Below, piece by piece: positions 3,642 to 33,402 of a stretch of 39,324 nt of DNA. Within the stretch, counting starts at the first letter, position 1. Each line of letters starts with the position of its first letter. A program made the translations under genes and the position numbers. This DNA comes from Desulfosporosinus sp. (lineage in GTDB: Bacteria; Bacillota; Desulfitobacteriia; Desulfitobacteriales; Desulfitobacteriaceae). The stretch covers positions 1 to 39,324 of the forward strand of contig DAIEHY010000005.1 in the NCBI GenBank assembly GCA_027353165.1. The letters run 5' to 3'. The notes beneath the pieces were generated by a model. The model made no database searches. It had not been told where the DNA came from and saw only the letters and a program-made list of their open reading frames with translations.

Positions 3642-5044
3642 AGGATCACCCCGGTTCCACAAATTGTCTGACCGCAGATATGATATTGGTGCAGGAACCA
3701 CGTCAAACCATCATCGACAAATGTCGGAGTGGATATGCTGTCGCCAAAATAAACATACTTCTCAACTACTCCGTCGTTATCATTAAACAAAGTTTTTTCG
3801 AGCGCAGCTAGGCGTTTGTTCATATCCTTTAGTATGCTTACGGCATCACGTTCCCTACTTGCGAGCTGTAGAGCGGGGTTTATGATACCGCTAGTGTCCG
3901 ACTCATAGACGACTTCTTTGATTTGCATGTACTCGTCGATATTGAGAAAGGGGATCTCGATTTTGATAAGCTCACCAGGCTTATAAGTTCCTTCGATTGG
4001 CTCGATCTTTCCATAGATAACGGGGCTCGAATACCTGGACAAATACTGCAGACCCATTTCCTTGGCAAGTATTTTATCGTCTACGTCCACTTTATAGATG
4101 TCCTCGAATAACCCGTATTTCAATTGGGAAGCGAGATCTTCTAGCAGTAGTTTAAAGGGGTACTCATAACTGTAAACGATTGTTCCTGTCCCGCTTACGC
4201 ATAGGTCTGGGATTAATAATTTCTCACTGGCGTTTAGCAGAAAATGCTTGGTTCCTACTTTATTGATGTTCTGTATCCCGACTGTTTTCACTACGCCCCC
4301 AATTGTCACAGCTACGCTTGTTCCATCAGGCGCTCGCGGGGTATATAAAAGGGGTATCGGAACTGTGCCGACTGTTATGCTTTGCGTGAATGGGTCAGAA
4401 GTTGCCTTACCACCTTTTACCCAAAGCTTATTGACAAGCTTGCTTGCGTCTGGCGTAAAGCTTGATGTACCACCTTTGAAATTTATATTTGCCTGACTCA
4501 GAACTATTGGGTTTACCCTGGAAGATTTATCAAAGAAATTAACGTCTAGGTTTTCGTCCACATACCAATCGTAAGCAGCGATCTGACAAAGTTGCTCCAT
4601 GGCGTCCCAGAGGTAATTGTCACCAAAGCGTATGGTCACGACCTTGGTGCAAGATTGGATGTTTATTCTTGTCGCCCAAGGGACGTACTTACTAAACAGG
4701 TCCGTCACAATATCGCTTACTGCTACGTCCGTATAACTCTCTGTTACAATAATCTTCTGCGTCCGGGAGGTGTAAGATGACCCCTCGAAATCCAATGTCC
4801 GGAATGTGCCGTCTAGTGACTTTGGCGGCTTAACCACCCAACCCCTGAATACGTTTTCATCTTGAAAAATTTGGACGTCGGATCCTACTGGGAAGGTATC
4901 AACGAGTGACTCATCAAAGCTTAGTAAGGATAGGCTGAACGAGCCCGCTCTATCATTTGTGGATAGAGCTGTTTTGCAAGACTCATAAGACACTATTTCC
5001 TGTTGCACTCCACCAGGGGGCGTCATCTTGATTCTTGTGCCCAT
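3638..5044 (-). CDS. Tail hub / baseplate-type tail protein
   Basis: A 468-residue protein directly after the tape measure gene, the place of the tail hub in siphoviruses. The N-terminal 100 residues (S-L-L-S-F-D-E-S, G-S-D-V-Q-I-F-Q-D, V-F-R-G-W-V) and the central A-Y-D-W-Y-V-D-E-N-L-D-V-N-F-F segment resemble the gp27/gp37-like hub fold with its first two beta-barrel domains. The region E-L-I-K-I-E-I-P-F-L-N-I-D-E-Y-M-Q-I-K-E-V resembles the closing barrel segment of this fold, and residues 405-420 form a short coiled coil. No peptidase or lysozyme domain is visible. The start ATG shares a base with the tape measure stop. Confidence 0.75.
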   Translation of the reverse strand: MGTRIKMTPPGGVQQEIVSYESCKTALSTNDRAGSFSLSLLSFDESLVDTFPVGSDVQIFQDENVFRGWVVKPPKSLDGTFRTLDFEGSSYTSRTQKIIVTESYTDVAVSDIVTDLFSKYVPWATRINIQSCTKVVTIRFGDNYLWDAMEQLCQIAAYDWYVDENLDVNFFDKSSRVNPIVLSQANINFKGGTSSFTPDASKLVNKLWVKGGKATSDPFTQSITVGTVPIPLLYTPRAPDGTSVAVTIGGVVKTVGIQNINKVGTKHFLLNASEKLLIPDLCVSGTGTIVYSYEYPFKLLLEDLASQLKYGLFEDIYKVDVDDKILAKEMGLQYLSRYSSPVIYGKIEPIEGTYKPGELIKIEIPFLNIDEYMQIKEVVYESDTSGIINPALQLASRERDAVSILKDMNKRLAALEKTLFNDNDGVVEKYVYFGDSISTPTFVDDGLTWFLHQYHICGQTICGTGVIL

Positions 5045-6807
5045 TAAAAATCGCCCCCTGTGCTAAGCCCGTAAGTATTGGCTATCTCCCCACTAACTAT
5101 CTTTGCGAGCTCTTTCATGCCTCCAGATCCAACCACTGTTCCTTGATTAATAAATTGTACAATTAGCCCGCCGGTGCTTTTGCGATTGATCGCAGAGTTC
5201 TTTGCCATCTCCATGCTCACATCATGTGGGATAATCCTTGTCCCACTGGGGAGGTCTAGGATCTCACCGCCCAGCTCATTGACCCAAGTCAATCCACCCT
5301 CAAAGTTATCTGTCCCACCTGCGTGCTCTGGAACGTTCTTTGAGAGCTTCGAGCTTGTGCTAACGTTCTTACTTGAGGCAGGAGTACTGTTCCAACTTTT
5401 CAGCCAATCAATGGCGGTCTTGATTGCCCCGGTAACTTTCTCGAAAACGCTTACCACATCTTCGACCACTCCAATCACGATATCAAAAGCCGCCTTAACG
5501 ACGTCCCCGATGAGAGGAAATGTCGGAGAAATAAAGTCCCATAACGCTTTAAGAATAGGCAATAATAGGTTTTTAAAGATATCCCAAACGATCGTGACGA
5601 CATTTTTAATAACTGTAAATACGCCCGATACGATAGTTTCTATTTGAGGCATATAACTACTAATCATGTTGTACAGACCAGCGATGATCGGTAATAGATT
5701 TTCCTTAAAAAACGTCCAGGCTCCGGTTACGACTAGCAATATCGCGTCAAAAACACTTTGCATCGTTGACTGTATTTCTGGCATGTGCAACATCACATAA
5801 TCGTATACCTCTTTGTAAATCGGCAATATATTCGTCTTGAAGAAGTCCCAAAGGGTTTTAACCACAGTTATGATAGCATTGAAAACGGTTTCGCTAGTCG
5901 CCTGAATGGCTGGCCAATTGGTCTGGATAAACGAAGAAACCCCTTGAATAATTGGCATGAAGTTTTTCTGGAAAACGTCTGTGGCCCCCCCAACAACACT
6001 CCCGATAGCGCCAAAAACATTTGTGAAGAAATTAGCGATAGCGGGAAGGTGAGGCGTAACCCAGTTTAAGAACTCCGTCATTTTTGGCAGTAACGCGGTT
6101 CCAATAGTTTCAGTCACATTTCCCATGGCGTTCTTTGCGATCTCCAACTGACCCGCGAATGTTTTACCGGCTGCCTCTGCAGATCCGCCAAACTCCTTGT
6201 TAAGCTCAGCCAGGATGATCTTTTGAGCCCCCGCCATGTCGCCGGTCTCCTGGAGCTTCTTGATCACAGATTTCTGATCTTCGCTAAAACTAACGCCAAC
6301 TCGACTTAAGGCCGTAATCCCGTTTATCGGATCGTTCAACGCTTTACCCAGGGCTATGGATTGCCCGGCAGCATCTCCACCCAAAGCTGTGGCCATATCG
6401 AGCGCTGTTTTAGTTGCATCGGGAAATACGTCTTTACCGATATTGGTAAATGTGAGAAGCAATGATTCAGCGGCCTGCGTGGATTCAGCTGAAAACTTTG
6501 TTGTCCCTTCTAGGGCATCCGCTAGATCGGTCAGCTCATCCCGTGTAACTCCTGCTGCCCCACCAGTAGATTCCAGGACCGCGTCTAGCTGAGCAAGAGA
6601 CGATTCTGCTTCTGCCGCATCCCCAATGGATGCTAAGGCTATACCGCCCAAAGCCACCGCGAGTCCAGCACCCCATTTAGCAACCGACCCGATCATACTC
6701 CCAAAACTACCTGATGTTTTTTGAGCCTTAGTTTCTATGTCGTCGAGCTTGCCCTCAACACCTTCGTCTTTTAGAAGGATCGAGCCAAAAAGACTGAATA
6801 TCTCCAA
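5044..6807 (-). CDS. Tail tape measure protein
   Basis: A 587-residue tape measure protein that sets tail length. The N-terminal 240 residues contain the TP901-type core (L-T-D-L-A-D-A-L-E-G-T-T-K-F-S and G-K-A-L-N-D-P-I-N-G-I-T-A-L-S-R-V-G-V-S-F). From about 260 to 460 there are four to five degenerate repeats of roughly 45 residues, each with a W-x-F-F-K-x-N-I/L-L-P-I core followed by a P-x-I-x-x-x-x-x-x-V-F motif. The C-terminus carries the usual G-G-x-x-W-V-N-E-x-G-G-E-I-L segment. At the commonly used 0.15 nm per residue this predicts a fairly short tail near 90 nm. Confidence 0.93.
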   Translation of the reverse strand: MEIFSLFGSILLKDEGVEGKLDDIETKAQKTSGSFGSMIGSVAKWGAGLAVALGGIALASIGDAAEAESSLAQLDAVLESTGGAAGVTRDELTDLADALEGTTKFSAESTQAAESLLLTFTNIGKDVFPDATKTALDMATALGGDAAGQSIALGKALNDPINGITALSRVGVSFSEDQKSVIKKLQETGDMAGAQKIILAELNKEFGGSAEAAGKTFAGQLEIAKNAMGNVTETIGTALLPKMTEFLNWVTPHLPAIANFFTNVFGAIGSVVGGATDVFQKNFMPIIQGVSSFIQTNWPAIQATSETVFNAIITVVKTLWDFFKTNILPIYKEVYDYVMLHMPEIQSTMQSVFDAILLVVTGAWTFFKENLLPIIAGLYNMISSYMPQIETIVSGVFTVIKNVVTIVWDIFKNLLLPILKALWDFISPTFPLIGDVVKAAFDIVIGVVEDVVSVFEKVTGAIKTAIDWLKSWNSTPASSKNVSTSSKLSKNVPEHAGGTDNFEGGLTWVNELGGEILDLPSGTRIIPHDVSMEMAKNSAINRKSTGGLIVQFINQGTVVGSGGMKELAKIVSGEIANTYGLSTGGDF

Positions 6808-6841
6808 ATCGTGTCACCTCCTTCGGGCATTGCAAGGGCAT

Positions 6842-7165
6842 CTATTGACTAATAGATGCCCTTTGATCAACTTCTTTAATTCTCTCGGCAGCCTCGAGGA
6901 TCTGTTTAATGTCGGCTTTCTCTACTGTCTTCGTCTTGGCCTTGAATGCTAAATCCTTGTAATCTTTGAAAGACATGAACGTTTCCGCGTTCATTTTTCC
7001 AAAGTCAACGAGCCACTGCTGCCAAAGCCTATCTTCAATATCTTTCCTGTGTGCGTCTACAAGCAGCCGTGTGACGTTTTTCAAGCTAGATTTTGTAGTT
7101 GGGGTAATCCCATAGTGGCTATGCAATAAATATAATGTTTTCGAGTAACCTACTGCATAGCCTGT
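6842..7165 (-). CDS. Frameshift extension of the tail assembly chaperone (GT-like part)
   Basis: This 107-residue frame has no ribosome binding site and no good start of its own; the nearest start codon is a TTG at 7126. It is open, in the -1 frame, through the end of the upstream chaperone gene, and is expected to be made by -1 slippage at 7165-7171. The joined product would be 215 residues. The segment around the join (L-Y-L-L-H-S-H-Y-G-I-T-P) resembles the short-helix motif seen at the start of second chaperone parts. The downstream half is charged and helical (W-Q-Q-W-L-V-D-F-G-K-M-N). Position just before the tape measure gene is the classical place of G/GT proteins, which load the tape measure for tail assembly. 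Confidence 0.8.
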   Translation of the reverse strand, partial: TGYAVGYSKTLYLLHSHYGITPTTKSSLKNVTRLLVDAHRKDIEDRLWQQWLVDFGKMNAETFMSFKDYKDLAFKAKTKTVEKADIKQILEAAERIKEVDQRASISQ

Positions 7166-7171
7166 TTTAAA
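7117..7171 (-). promoter_or_regulatory. Programmed -1 ribosomal frameshift signal
   Basis: On the mRNA the heptamer U UUA AAA (7171-7165) sits in the zero frame of the first chaperone gene, five codons before its stop. Two bases later a perfect 9-bp stem begins: GGCUAUGCA (7162-7154) pairs with UGCAUAGCC (7125-7117) across a 28-base loop. Slippage by -1 leads into a frame open for 107 residues. Slippery site, stem, overlapping open frame and genomic position all agree. The 2-base spacer is shorter than the usual 5-9, so the first pairs may be melted in the paused ribosome. Confidence 0.82.
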
Positions 7172-7488
7172 AAATCCGTCGTATCCTTGTCCTCAAAGAT
7201 AGTTCTAACGCTGTTGATGGTTTTCATAAAACTTTGCGTTTTAACTTCTTCAACGGTTTTATCTTCAAAGACTGCAACAATCTCAAAGATTTCGGTCTTT
7301 ACCTTTGCGGAATTAGCTAAGACAAATTTCAGGAGACCAATCCCCAGAATCTTCTCATTGGGTTTTTCTTTCCCTTTAATTTCTTTGGCAATTTTCTCTC
7401 TGTAACCGTCCATGTCTAATTTGTCATACATCGCTACGACGCTAGGTAGCATGTCAAAGGCTTTCTCAGTGTTAAACAATTTAATCAC
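7150..7488 (-). CDS. Tail assembly chaperone (G-like protein)
   Basis: A 112-residue acidic and helical protein located between the major tail protein and the tape measure, where siphoviruses encode the first tail assembly chaperone. The sequence (F-D-M-L-P-S-V-V-A-M-Y-D-K-L-D near the N-terminus and a C-terminal E-D-K-D-T-T-D-F-L-K-Q-A-M-Q) fits the helical chaperone families of Bacillota phages. Most ribosomes would stop at 7150; a minority would slip at 7165-7171 and make the fused form. A hairpin terminator upstream (7514-7544) should lower its mRNA relative to the tail tube protein. Confidence 0.82.
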   Translation of the reverse strand: MIKLFNTEKAFDMLPSVVAMYDKLDMDGYREKIAKEIKGKEKPNEKILGIGLLKFVLANSAKVKTEIFEIVAVFEDKTVEEVKTQSFMKTINSVRTIFEDKDTTDFLKQAMQ

Positions 7489-7513: not shown

Positions 7514-7544
7514 TAAGAAGCACCCTTTCATCGGGTGCTTCTTA
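7514..7544 (-). terminator. Hairpin between tail tube and chaperone genes
   Basis: TAAGAAGCACCC (7514-7525) and GGGTGCTTCTTA (7533-7543/44) make a perfect 12-bp stem with a 7-base loop. The sequence after it on the minus strand is only moderately U-rich, so partial termination is likely, which would favour high expression of the tail tube protein over the chaperones. Confidence 0.65.
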
Positions 7545-7548
7545 AGAT

Positions 7549-8427
7549 TTAGTTATTTACAACTGATAGCTCTGCAAAGGTTTGTAATTCCACTGCACTG
7601 ACTGACTTGATCCTAACACCGGCAAGTGGCAGCGTGTACGCGATGGTAACAGCCTGTCCACTCGTAGGAGGAGTAGTTAGTGTTAATAGGATCGTGTTGA
7701 GTTGATTCGTGCCTCTTGCGATGGCGGTGATTACGTTGGCGACATCATTGACCTTAGCTACAAACCCATCTTTAAATACGGCCGCATTTACAGTGTCGCT
7801 AAAAGTGAGTTGAATCTTAGCGTTGTCTATCACCGGGGATCCTGATAGATTAAACGGCACTCCTATACTCGCTTTTGGATATCGGATTTCGTAAGGCATT
7901 ACACTTGGCGTTGCTGGATCCACGTGAGCGGTAAACGTCACCGGCAGGACTATGTCTTTTTGATCCTCGGTTTTGATCTGCAATCCGCCTAAGCAAAGAG
8001 CATTTTTCAAAAGGATTACAACTGGGTAAGTACTCCCACTAAGGATCCCGACAATAGCAATATTCTCCAGATAATCCGCGTCTGCGATTACCGTCTTGCC
8101 GGTAATGATGTCGTAATTTGTATCACTCGCAGTATCTATGCTCCCGATTAGCGCCATCTGTAAAATTTCAGGTGTAACCTCAAGGAAATTCGCCTTTAAG
8201 GTGGTCTCAACATCCGTGATTATCTCTAATCCTTTTGCAAAACTAGATTTGATACCGTCGATCTTAGGTTGTCGCATTTTTATCTTGACTTCAAATTGGT
8301 TTCCGCCCGAGGTAGCACCAATAAGCTTCTCAGTGGGTAATCCATAATTTTTATATACCGCCCCGGCATCAATTAACAGATTGTTAGGGGTTACTGCCGT
8401 ATACCCCGTGGTCGCAGTACTGAACAT
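7549..8427 (-). CDS. Major tail (tube) protein with C-terminal Ig-like domain
   Basis: A 292-residue protein with a GGAGGG ribosome binding site before its ATG. Residues 1-200 have the layout of siphovirus tail tube proteins (V-Y-K-N-Y-G at the front, a K-I-K-M-R-Q-P-K-I-D-G loop and a P-V-T-F-T-A-H-V-D-P segment). Residues about 208-292 (F-N-L-S-G-S-P-V-I-D-N-A-K-I then L-T-L-T-T-P-P-T-S-G-Q-A-V-T-I-A-Y-T) look like an immunoglobulin-like or SwmB-like beta domain, a common surface decoration of tail tubes that may bind carbohydrate. It is followed by a strong hairpin. Confidence 0.85.
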   Translation of the reverse strand: MFSTATTGYTAVTPNNLLIDAGAVYKNYGLPTEKLIGATSGGNQFEVKIKMRQPKIDGIKSSFAKGLEIITDVETTLKANFLEVTPEILQMALIGSIDTASDTNYDIITGKTVIADADYLENIAIVGILSGSTYPVVILLKNALCLGGLQIKTEDQKDIVLPVTFTAHVDPATPSVMPYEIRYPKASIGVPFNLSGSPVIDNAKIQLTFSDTVNAAVFKDGFVAKVNDVANVITAIARGTNQLNTILLTLTTPPTSGQAVTIAYTLPLAGVRIKSVSAVELQTFAELSVVNN

Positions 8428-32790: not shown

Positions 32791-33402
32791 TTATTCAGAT
32801 TCGCCTTCTGTTTCAACTACCACGCCCCGGAAACGAATTCTGATATATTGGATCAGTACTAAGTAGGCCTCACCATATTGGCTGTCCCCGTGTCGGTTTA
32901 GCACGGCAGCCTCGAATTTATCGATCGACCCTTGGAAGCAACCCCGAGTAATTTCGATAGTTTCCTCCTTGGTCATGTACGCGGTAAGCGTGCCACTCTC
33001 TGAGCCCACTGAAGAAAACCAGGCTATGTGTTTTCTTGAGGACACCTGAGCATCGCCGTACACCTGAGCATCGCCGGACACCCGAGCATCGCCGGACACC
33101 CGAGCATCGCCGTACACCCGAGCATTGCCGGACACCCAAGCATTGCCGGACACCCGAGCATCGCCGTACACCCGAGCATCGCCGTACACCCGAGCATTGC
33201 CGGACACCTGAGCATTGCCGGACACCTGAGCATTGCCGGACACCCAAGCATTGCCGGACACCTGAGCAAGATTATCTTCTTTTTGAACCCAACCGCCCAG
33301 ATCGCCTTCTTTAACGTCCTCGAATGAACGAGTAGCTTTGATTTGGTGTAAAGTAATCCCGAAATATTCCTTGGTAACCTCGGTCAATATGAATTTTTGC
33401 AT
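32791..33402 (-). CDS. Hexapeptide-repeat (beta-solenoid) protein
   Basis: A 203-residue protein. The N-terminal 46 residues contain E-D-V-K-E-G-D-L-G-G-W-V-Q-K-E-D-N-L, the cap motif of YdcK-like and polymer-forming phage proteins. Residues 47-118 are twelve exact-length hexapeptides [QWR]-V-[SY]-G-[ND]-A plus a partial one, which would stack as four turns of a left-handed beta-helix. Residues 125-200 form a C-terminal domain (T-L-T-A-Y-M-T-K-E-E-T, F-E-A-A-V-L-N-R-H-G). The DNA of the repeats is nearly identical from unit to unit, so the number of turns may vary between relatives. Confidence 0.88.
   Translation of the reverse strand: MQKFILTEVTKEYFGITLHQIKATRSFEDVKEGDLGGWVQKEDNLAQVSGNAWVSGNAQVSGNAQVSGNARVYGDARVYGDARVSGNAWVSGNARVYGDARVSGDARVSGDAQVYGDAQVSSRKHIAWFSSVGSESGTLTAYMTKEETIEITRGCFQGSIDKFEAAVLNRHGDSQYGEAYLVLIQYIRIRFRGVVVETEGESE
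33040..33264 (-). repeat. 18-bp tandem repeat inside the solenoid gene
   Basis: Twelve and a half copies of an 18-base unit, on the plus strand about G-C-A-T-T/C-G-C-C-G-G/T-A-C-A-C-C-C/T-G-A. Variation is confined to a few positions that change Q/W/R, S/Y and N/D. The repeat leaves several frames open on both strands, which explains long open frames there that are not genes. Confidence 0.95.

Follow-up and report, generated by a model that had tools for sequence, protein, structure and literature searches.

Probable programmed −1 frameshifting at a conserved U UUU UUN site followed by a covarying hairpin in tail-chaperone genes of a Desulfosporosinus phage contig

Proposed production of G and G-T

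The G-like and T-like genes of a Desulfosporosinus contig most probably yield two tail-assembly chaperones, G and G-T, by programmed −1 frameshifting like that of lambda G/G-T, with a conserved hairpin as stimulator. The evidence, which is comparative and drawn from sequence, consists of a conserved slippery site, an open −1 frame, a covarying stem and synteny, and it agrees with the frameshift proposed in an earlier note on this DNA. The heptamer itself has to be corrected: judged from the homologs, the conserved shift site is U UUU UUN, and not U UUA AAA as had been put forward.

In the proposed mechanism, the majority of ribosomes would translate G and terminate at UAG 7152. The other, fewer ribosomes would encounter a 15-bp hairpin 5 nt downstream of U UUU UUA while its UUU and UUA codons are paired with tRNA-Phe and tRNA-Leu, shift back by one base onto UUU UUU and proceed through the T domain, reading ...DFL-K-T-GYAV.... 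By analogy with lambda, G could form a coat around the tape measure and G-T, the less abundant product, could recruit the major tail protein.

Genomic context and identity of G and T

The window, i.e., the whole stretch of DNA analysed, is an entire contig of 39,324 bases from a 2.24-Mb metagenome-assembled genome. It is a prophage or a phage, on which family models recognise a serine recombinase, a major capsid protein and a tape measure protein. On the minus strand, the major tail protein gene (7549..8427; phrog_885, 8.6e-57) lies immediately 5' of the G-like ORF, which is followed by the −1 ORF of the T domain and, immediately 3' of the latter, by the tape measure gene (5044..6807; Pfam TMP_2, 1.8e-8; phrog_27166, 5.5e-37). 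The neighbours of the G/T pair are therefore those of lambda-type chaperone genes.

The G-like ORF (7150..7479, minus strand) likely starts at TTG 7479, with GTG 7488 as an alternative, and stops at UAG 7152-7150, encoding 109 aa from the former codon and 112 aa from the latter. TTG 7479 is the likelier start because homologs start there: their alignment begins at this codon, in place of which they have an ATG preceded by a Shine-Dalgarno sequence. The T-domain ORF (6842..7165, minus strand) is open in the −1 frame over 107 codons down to 6845, as had been noted earlier, and ends with a stop at 6844-6842. The G-T fusion would be of 212 aa from TTG 7479 or of 215 aa from GTG 7488, and the likely products are therefore of 109 and 212 aa, and not of 112 and 215 aa; the 215-residue fusion previously announced would be correct if translation started at GTG 7488.

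Across the homolog set, all or most members have a G matched by phrog_18646 and phrog_1021 and a T matched by phrog_1294. No tail-chaperone model of Pfam or NCBIfam matches. The predicted structure of G is all-helical (pLDDT 87), and its weak viral matches include a Lactococcus 1358 protein as long as the G gene of that phage and a Bacillus 'Tail assembly chaperone'. Against the PDB, neither G (Foldseek, VIA-align) nor T (Foldseek) had a meaningful match, which is not to be taken as evidence of a new fold. As G has neither a chaperone match in Pfam or NCBIfam nor a match among solved structures, we infer the chaperone role of the pair from gene order, the predicted frameshift and homology to phage genes at corresponding positions.

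Other structures are observed around these genes. A terminator-like 12-bp hairpin (7514-7544; -20.6 kcal/mol, z -7.2) separates G from the major tail protein gene and probably lowers G expression relative to that of the tail protein. A hairpin with a T-rich tail is present at the equivalent position, ahead of the G Shine-Dalgarno sequence, in most homologs, and the record of Bacillus phage vB_BhaS-171 has a terminator annotated there. A 13-bp hairpin (6834-6863) covers the T stop codon, just 5' of the tape measure Shine-Dalgarno sequence. Elsewhere in the window, a tandem repeat (33040-33268; 18-bp unit, 12.7 copies) within ORF 33402-32791 of the minus strand encodes a VSGNA/VYGDA hexapeptide-like repeat.

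Conservation of the slippery site

Two overlapping heptamers are found in the frame of G, near its end. U UUU UUA (7168..7174, minus strand), which has the in-frame X XXY YYZ form of canonical signals, starts three bases 5' of U UUA AAA (7165..7171, minus strand) and lies 22 nt ahead of the G stop. The latter heptamer is, as had been stated, in the correct frame, i.e., that of ORF 7488-7150. In order to compare them, homologs were collected from viral contigs, genome contigs and whole genomes and, after removal of duplicates, 35 readable junctions were retained.

An in-frame U UUU UU(A/C/U) is present in 32 of the 35 distinct homologs, whereas U UUA AAA is found in the window alone and in 0 of the 34 others, five of which have the related U UUA AAG. 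When 32 sequences are aligned without gaps, the T run (columns 1-6) is invariant except in three rows, and columns 7, 9 and 10, which U UUA AAA requires, are variable. Three members at a greater distance carry U UUU UUA (L008, L010) or U UUU UUG (L009).

The site extends to distant phages, which were found via relatives of the major tail protein. An in-frame U UUU UU site and a −1 T ORF occur together at the same junction in 10 of the 11 distant phages compared, which come from Listeria, Streptococcus, Enterococcus, Lactococcus, Bacillus, Parageobacillus and Stenotrophomonas, together with an unassigned phage from bat faeces. Listeria P35 and P40, Streptococcus Javan215, Enterococcus phiFL4A, Lactococcus BM13 and Stenotrophomonas TPWB-10 carry, at the equal position, G and T genes homologous to those of the window (phrog_1021/phrog_1294), with an in-frame U UUU UUC and a −1 T ORF as in the window's clade. 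Comparison of profiles between this clade and the phage pairs gives E values of 7e-8 for G and 3e-13 for T.

It could be argued that frameshifting is real but takes place, in the window, at U UUA AAA (7171-7165) or at both overlapping heptamers. Shifting at U UUA AAN is on record (PMC5009743), the two heptamers share the frame of G and would give fusions of equal length differing by one residue, and tandem slippage could employ either of them as the ribosome advances. The distribution described above nevertheless shows that U UUA AAA is not what the family has conserved. The 2-base spacer, which the earlier note had held worth recording, falls with it, because the conserved heptamer sits three bases upstream: the distance from U UUU UUA to the stem is 5 nt, within the range of 5-9 nt on which studies have concentrated (PMC5009743). 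We thus regard slippage at U UUA AAA in the window as rather unlikely, and keep U UUU UUA as the preferred site. The two would be distinguished at the junction, since slippage on U UUU UUA should yield both DFLK and DFFK, and slippage on U UUA AAA should yield DFLK alone; the HIV slip site provides a model for such mixed junction peptides (PMC5009743).

Some members depart from the canonical heptamer. L024 (about 1328) has G UUU UUU, and L048 and L051 have G CUU UUC at the end of the G ORF, all three with the hairpin and T kept; in L078 (about 4621), G GUU UUC is found and G and T are still in −1 relation. U UUN is all that these four variants share with each other and with all other members. 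It is conceivable, although we give it little credence, that the hairpin, and not a tandem heptamer, is the essential element in the window's clade, and that one tRNA-Phe slipping on U UUN can suffice. This suggestion comes from L024, L048 and L051 keeping the hairpin and the −1 T ORF despite an upstream codon that re-pairs poorly, and from Lactococcus 1358, whose heptamer is G GUU UUC. If it were true, it would be a case of natural single-tRNA −1 frameshifting in tail chaperones, and these natural variants lacking a canonical heptamer allow one-tRNA and two-tRNA slippage to be tested against each other.

A covarying hairpin downstream of the site

Downstream of the conserved heptamer, a spacer of 5 nt (AAACA, 7163..7167, minus strand) leads to a hairpin made of a 5' arm (7148..7162), a 16-nt loop (7132..7147), which is coding in the −1 frame, and a 3' arm (7117..7131), which encodes LLHS in that frame, all on the minus strand. 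The 9-bp stem and 28-base loop described earlier are part of this structure: GGCUAUGCA (7162-7154) and UGCAUAGCC (7125-7117) are indeed exact complements, 28 nt apart and 2 nt past U UUA AAA, but six further pairs extend the helix to a stem of 15 bp at -20.0 kcal/mol. Dinucleotide shuffles reach -6.1 +/- 1.9 kcal/mol (z -7.3), and none out of 200 is as stable. Canonical signals have a stem-loop or pseudoknot about 5-9 nt downstream of the heptamer, a distance at which the 15-bp stem is found here.

The stem starts 5-6 nt past the heptamer throughout the homologs: the spacer is of 5 nt in the window and of 6 nt in most homologs, in which the outermost G-C pair is absent, and L073, with a shorter stem and a moved 3' arm, keeps this spacing. 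L044, L055 and L073, which are outside the alignment, have differently placed or longer stems starting near the usual distance, and L007 and L056 have weak hairpins. In most members, the 5' arm contains the 0-frame stop, as it does in the window with UAG 7152-7150. In L074, this stop is just 10 nt past the heptamer start and G is devoid of its usual QAM ending, the hairpin and T being retained.

Covariation of the stem among homologs, which had been proposed as a check, is found. Changes on both sides occur in 10 of the 15 pairs, and 84.6% of cells pair. Double-change cells number 37, against 14.5 +/- 2.9 after shuffling, and the covariation score is 0.296, against 0.194 +/- 0.011 after shuffling and 0.065-0.106 in slid controls. 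These two measures and the percentage paired are above all 500 shuffles and every slid register, and RNAalifold independently predicts the identical helix. On a maximum-likelihood tree of G and T (29 rows), from which the residues encoded by the hairpin were left out, parsimony requires at least about 20 Watson-Crick-to-Watson-Crick changes, summed over ten pairs; several homologs share one environment and may be related, and the tree count corrects for kinship only partly. In L012, pairing is preserved by a G-C to A-U switch that changes amino acids in both frames.

Because both frames code across the hairpin, a dual-coding null was used, in which codons are resampled while both protein readings are kept. 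Under this null, 33 of the 34 homologs are more stable than their own null mean, with a mean z of -1.87. The window has a z of -1.85, 34 out of 500 variants being as stable, a result that is suggestive only, as single sequences are seldom decisive.

No Rfam family is found in the region at E <= 1. The covariance model of the clade, searched over 398 genomes of the phylum, matches the window and one more genome only, at the tail-chaperone locus L074; the hairpin is therefore not seen outside the tail-chaperone gene. Nor does this model detect the hairpin in the distant phages, P35, P40 and TPWB-10 having other possible hairpins.

Besides translational frameshifting, the window's U6A4 run could be seen as a place for transcriptional slippage, the shifted copies of a mixed mRNA being then read normally, since homopolymers can slip and six T are here followed by four A. 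In the homologs, however, only the six T are retained, followed by C as often as by A, and six T are fewer than in the T runs usually cited, for which n > 8 (PMC3711429). Moreover, the covarying hairpin is 3' of the site and would form once the polymerase has passed, whereas in the hairpin-stimulated transcriptional case on record the nascent stem adjoins the hybrid (PMC5009743). Transcriptional slippage is thus highly improbable, and we retain slippage of the ribosome.

Access to the T frame

As in the lambda type, T has no credible translation start of its own, in agreement with the absence of a usable start claimed earlier. Near its beginning, the −1 frame offers a single start-like codon, TTG 7126, which has no Shine-Dalgarno sequence and is not conserved, and ATG, GTG and TTG are all absent from the first ~150 nt of this frame in the homologs L013 and L042. 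Independent translation of T, from a start of its own or by reinitiation past the G stop, would find some support in TTG 7126 being in frame and in the annotations of relatives, which start T further downstream. It is nonetheless very hard to reconcile with these features of the −1 frame, with the conservation of this frame 5' of TTG 7126, and with the strong Shine-Dalgarno sequences that are present at the G genes. When homologs are compared, conservation of T begins directly after the heptamer, and variation across the loop is lowest at the second position of the −1 codons. That G and T are a single gene put out of frame by mutation or by an error of sequencing, as a homopolymer at the join of a MAG contig might suggest, can be practically dismissed, given that 35 distinct homologs, most of them assembled independently, and 11 phage records are split at the identical site.

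The name of the T family

phrog_1294 bears the name 'peptide methionine sulfoxide reductase', an enzyme whose chemistry involves a catalytic cysteine. The T domain of the window has no cysteine and no Pfam match. As members of phrog_1294 occupy the position of T and that of the window is devoid of cysteine, this name is very probably wrong; the family corresponds to the T domain. Records of the distant phages list T as a gene of its own, often under this same name. Genes so named correspond to the −1 T domain in L076 (4059-4331), L078 (4717-4977), L079 (4034-4258), L080 (3802-4032) and L081 (3603-3854), the joined G-T being unannotated. A misleading database name can thus be corrected, and joined G-T frames appear to have been overlooked in phage records.

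Comparison with known frameshift systems

The class of mechanism is already known; the novelty lies in identifying the clade, in correcting the site and in documenting the hairpin. The tail chaperones thereby gain a further clade, with phrog_1021/phrog_18646 as G and phrog_1294 as T, whose −1 signal is backed by about 20 compensatory switches in the hairpin. No description of the signal of this clade was found in the open literature; an earlier mention of the P35/P40 chaperone shift is possible, and Dorscht et al. reportedly described frameshifts of Listeria phages in 2009. The G/G-T tail assembly chaperone frameshift of phage lambda is reportedly that of Xu, Hendrix and Duda in 2004. The window's G and T have no detectable sequence similarity to named chaperone families.

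Among known phage sites, that of TP901-1 is GGGAAAG (PMC4493119), and those of Paenibacillus larvae phages are A-rich (PMC6256562). Outside phages, E. coli dnaX likewise combines a heptamer with a simple stem-loop at short distance (PMC5009743; PMC3711429), its stem being of 11 bp; it differs by its heptamer, A AAA AAG, by being a different gene, and by an upstream Shine-Dalgarno stimulator, which was not identified in the window. The lambda G/G-T frameshift, reviewed in PMC5009743, has in common with the window the gene order, a −1 shift predicted near the 3' end of G and leading into T, a likeness seen here at the level of the signal, and a T without its own start. The two nevertheless differ in their heptamer, which is U UUU UUA in the window and not a G/A-type site, and, whereas the lambda signal is described as seemingly devoid of a stimulator, the clade of the window has a covarying hairpin.
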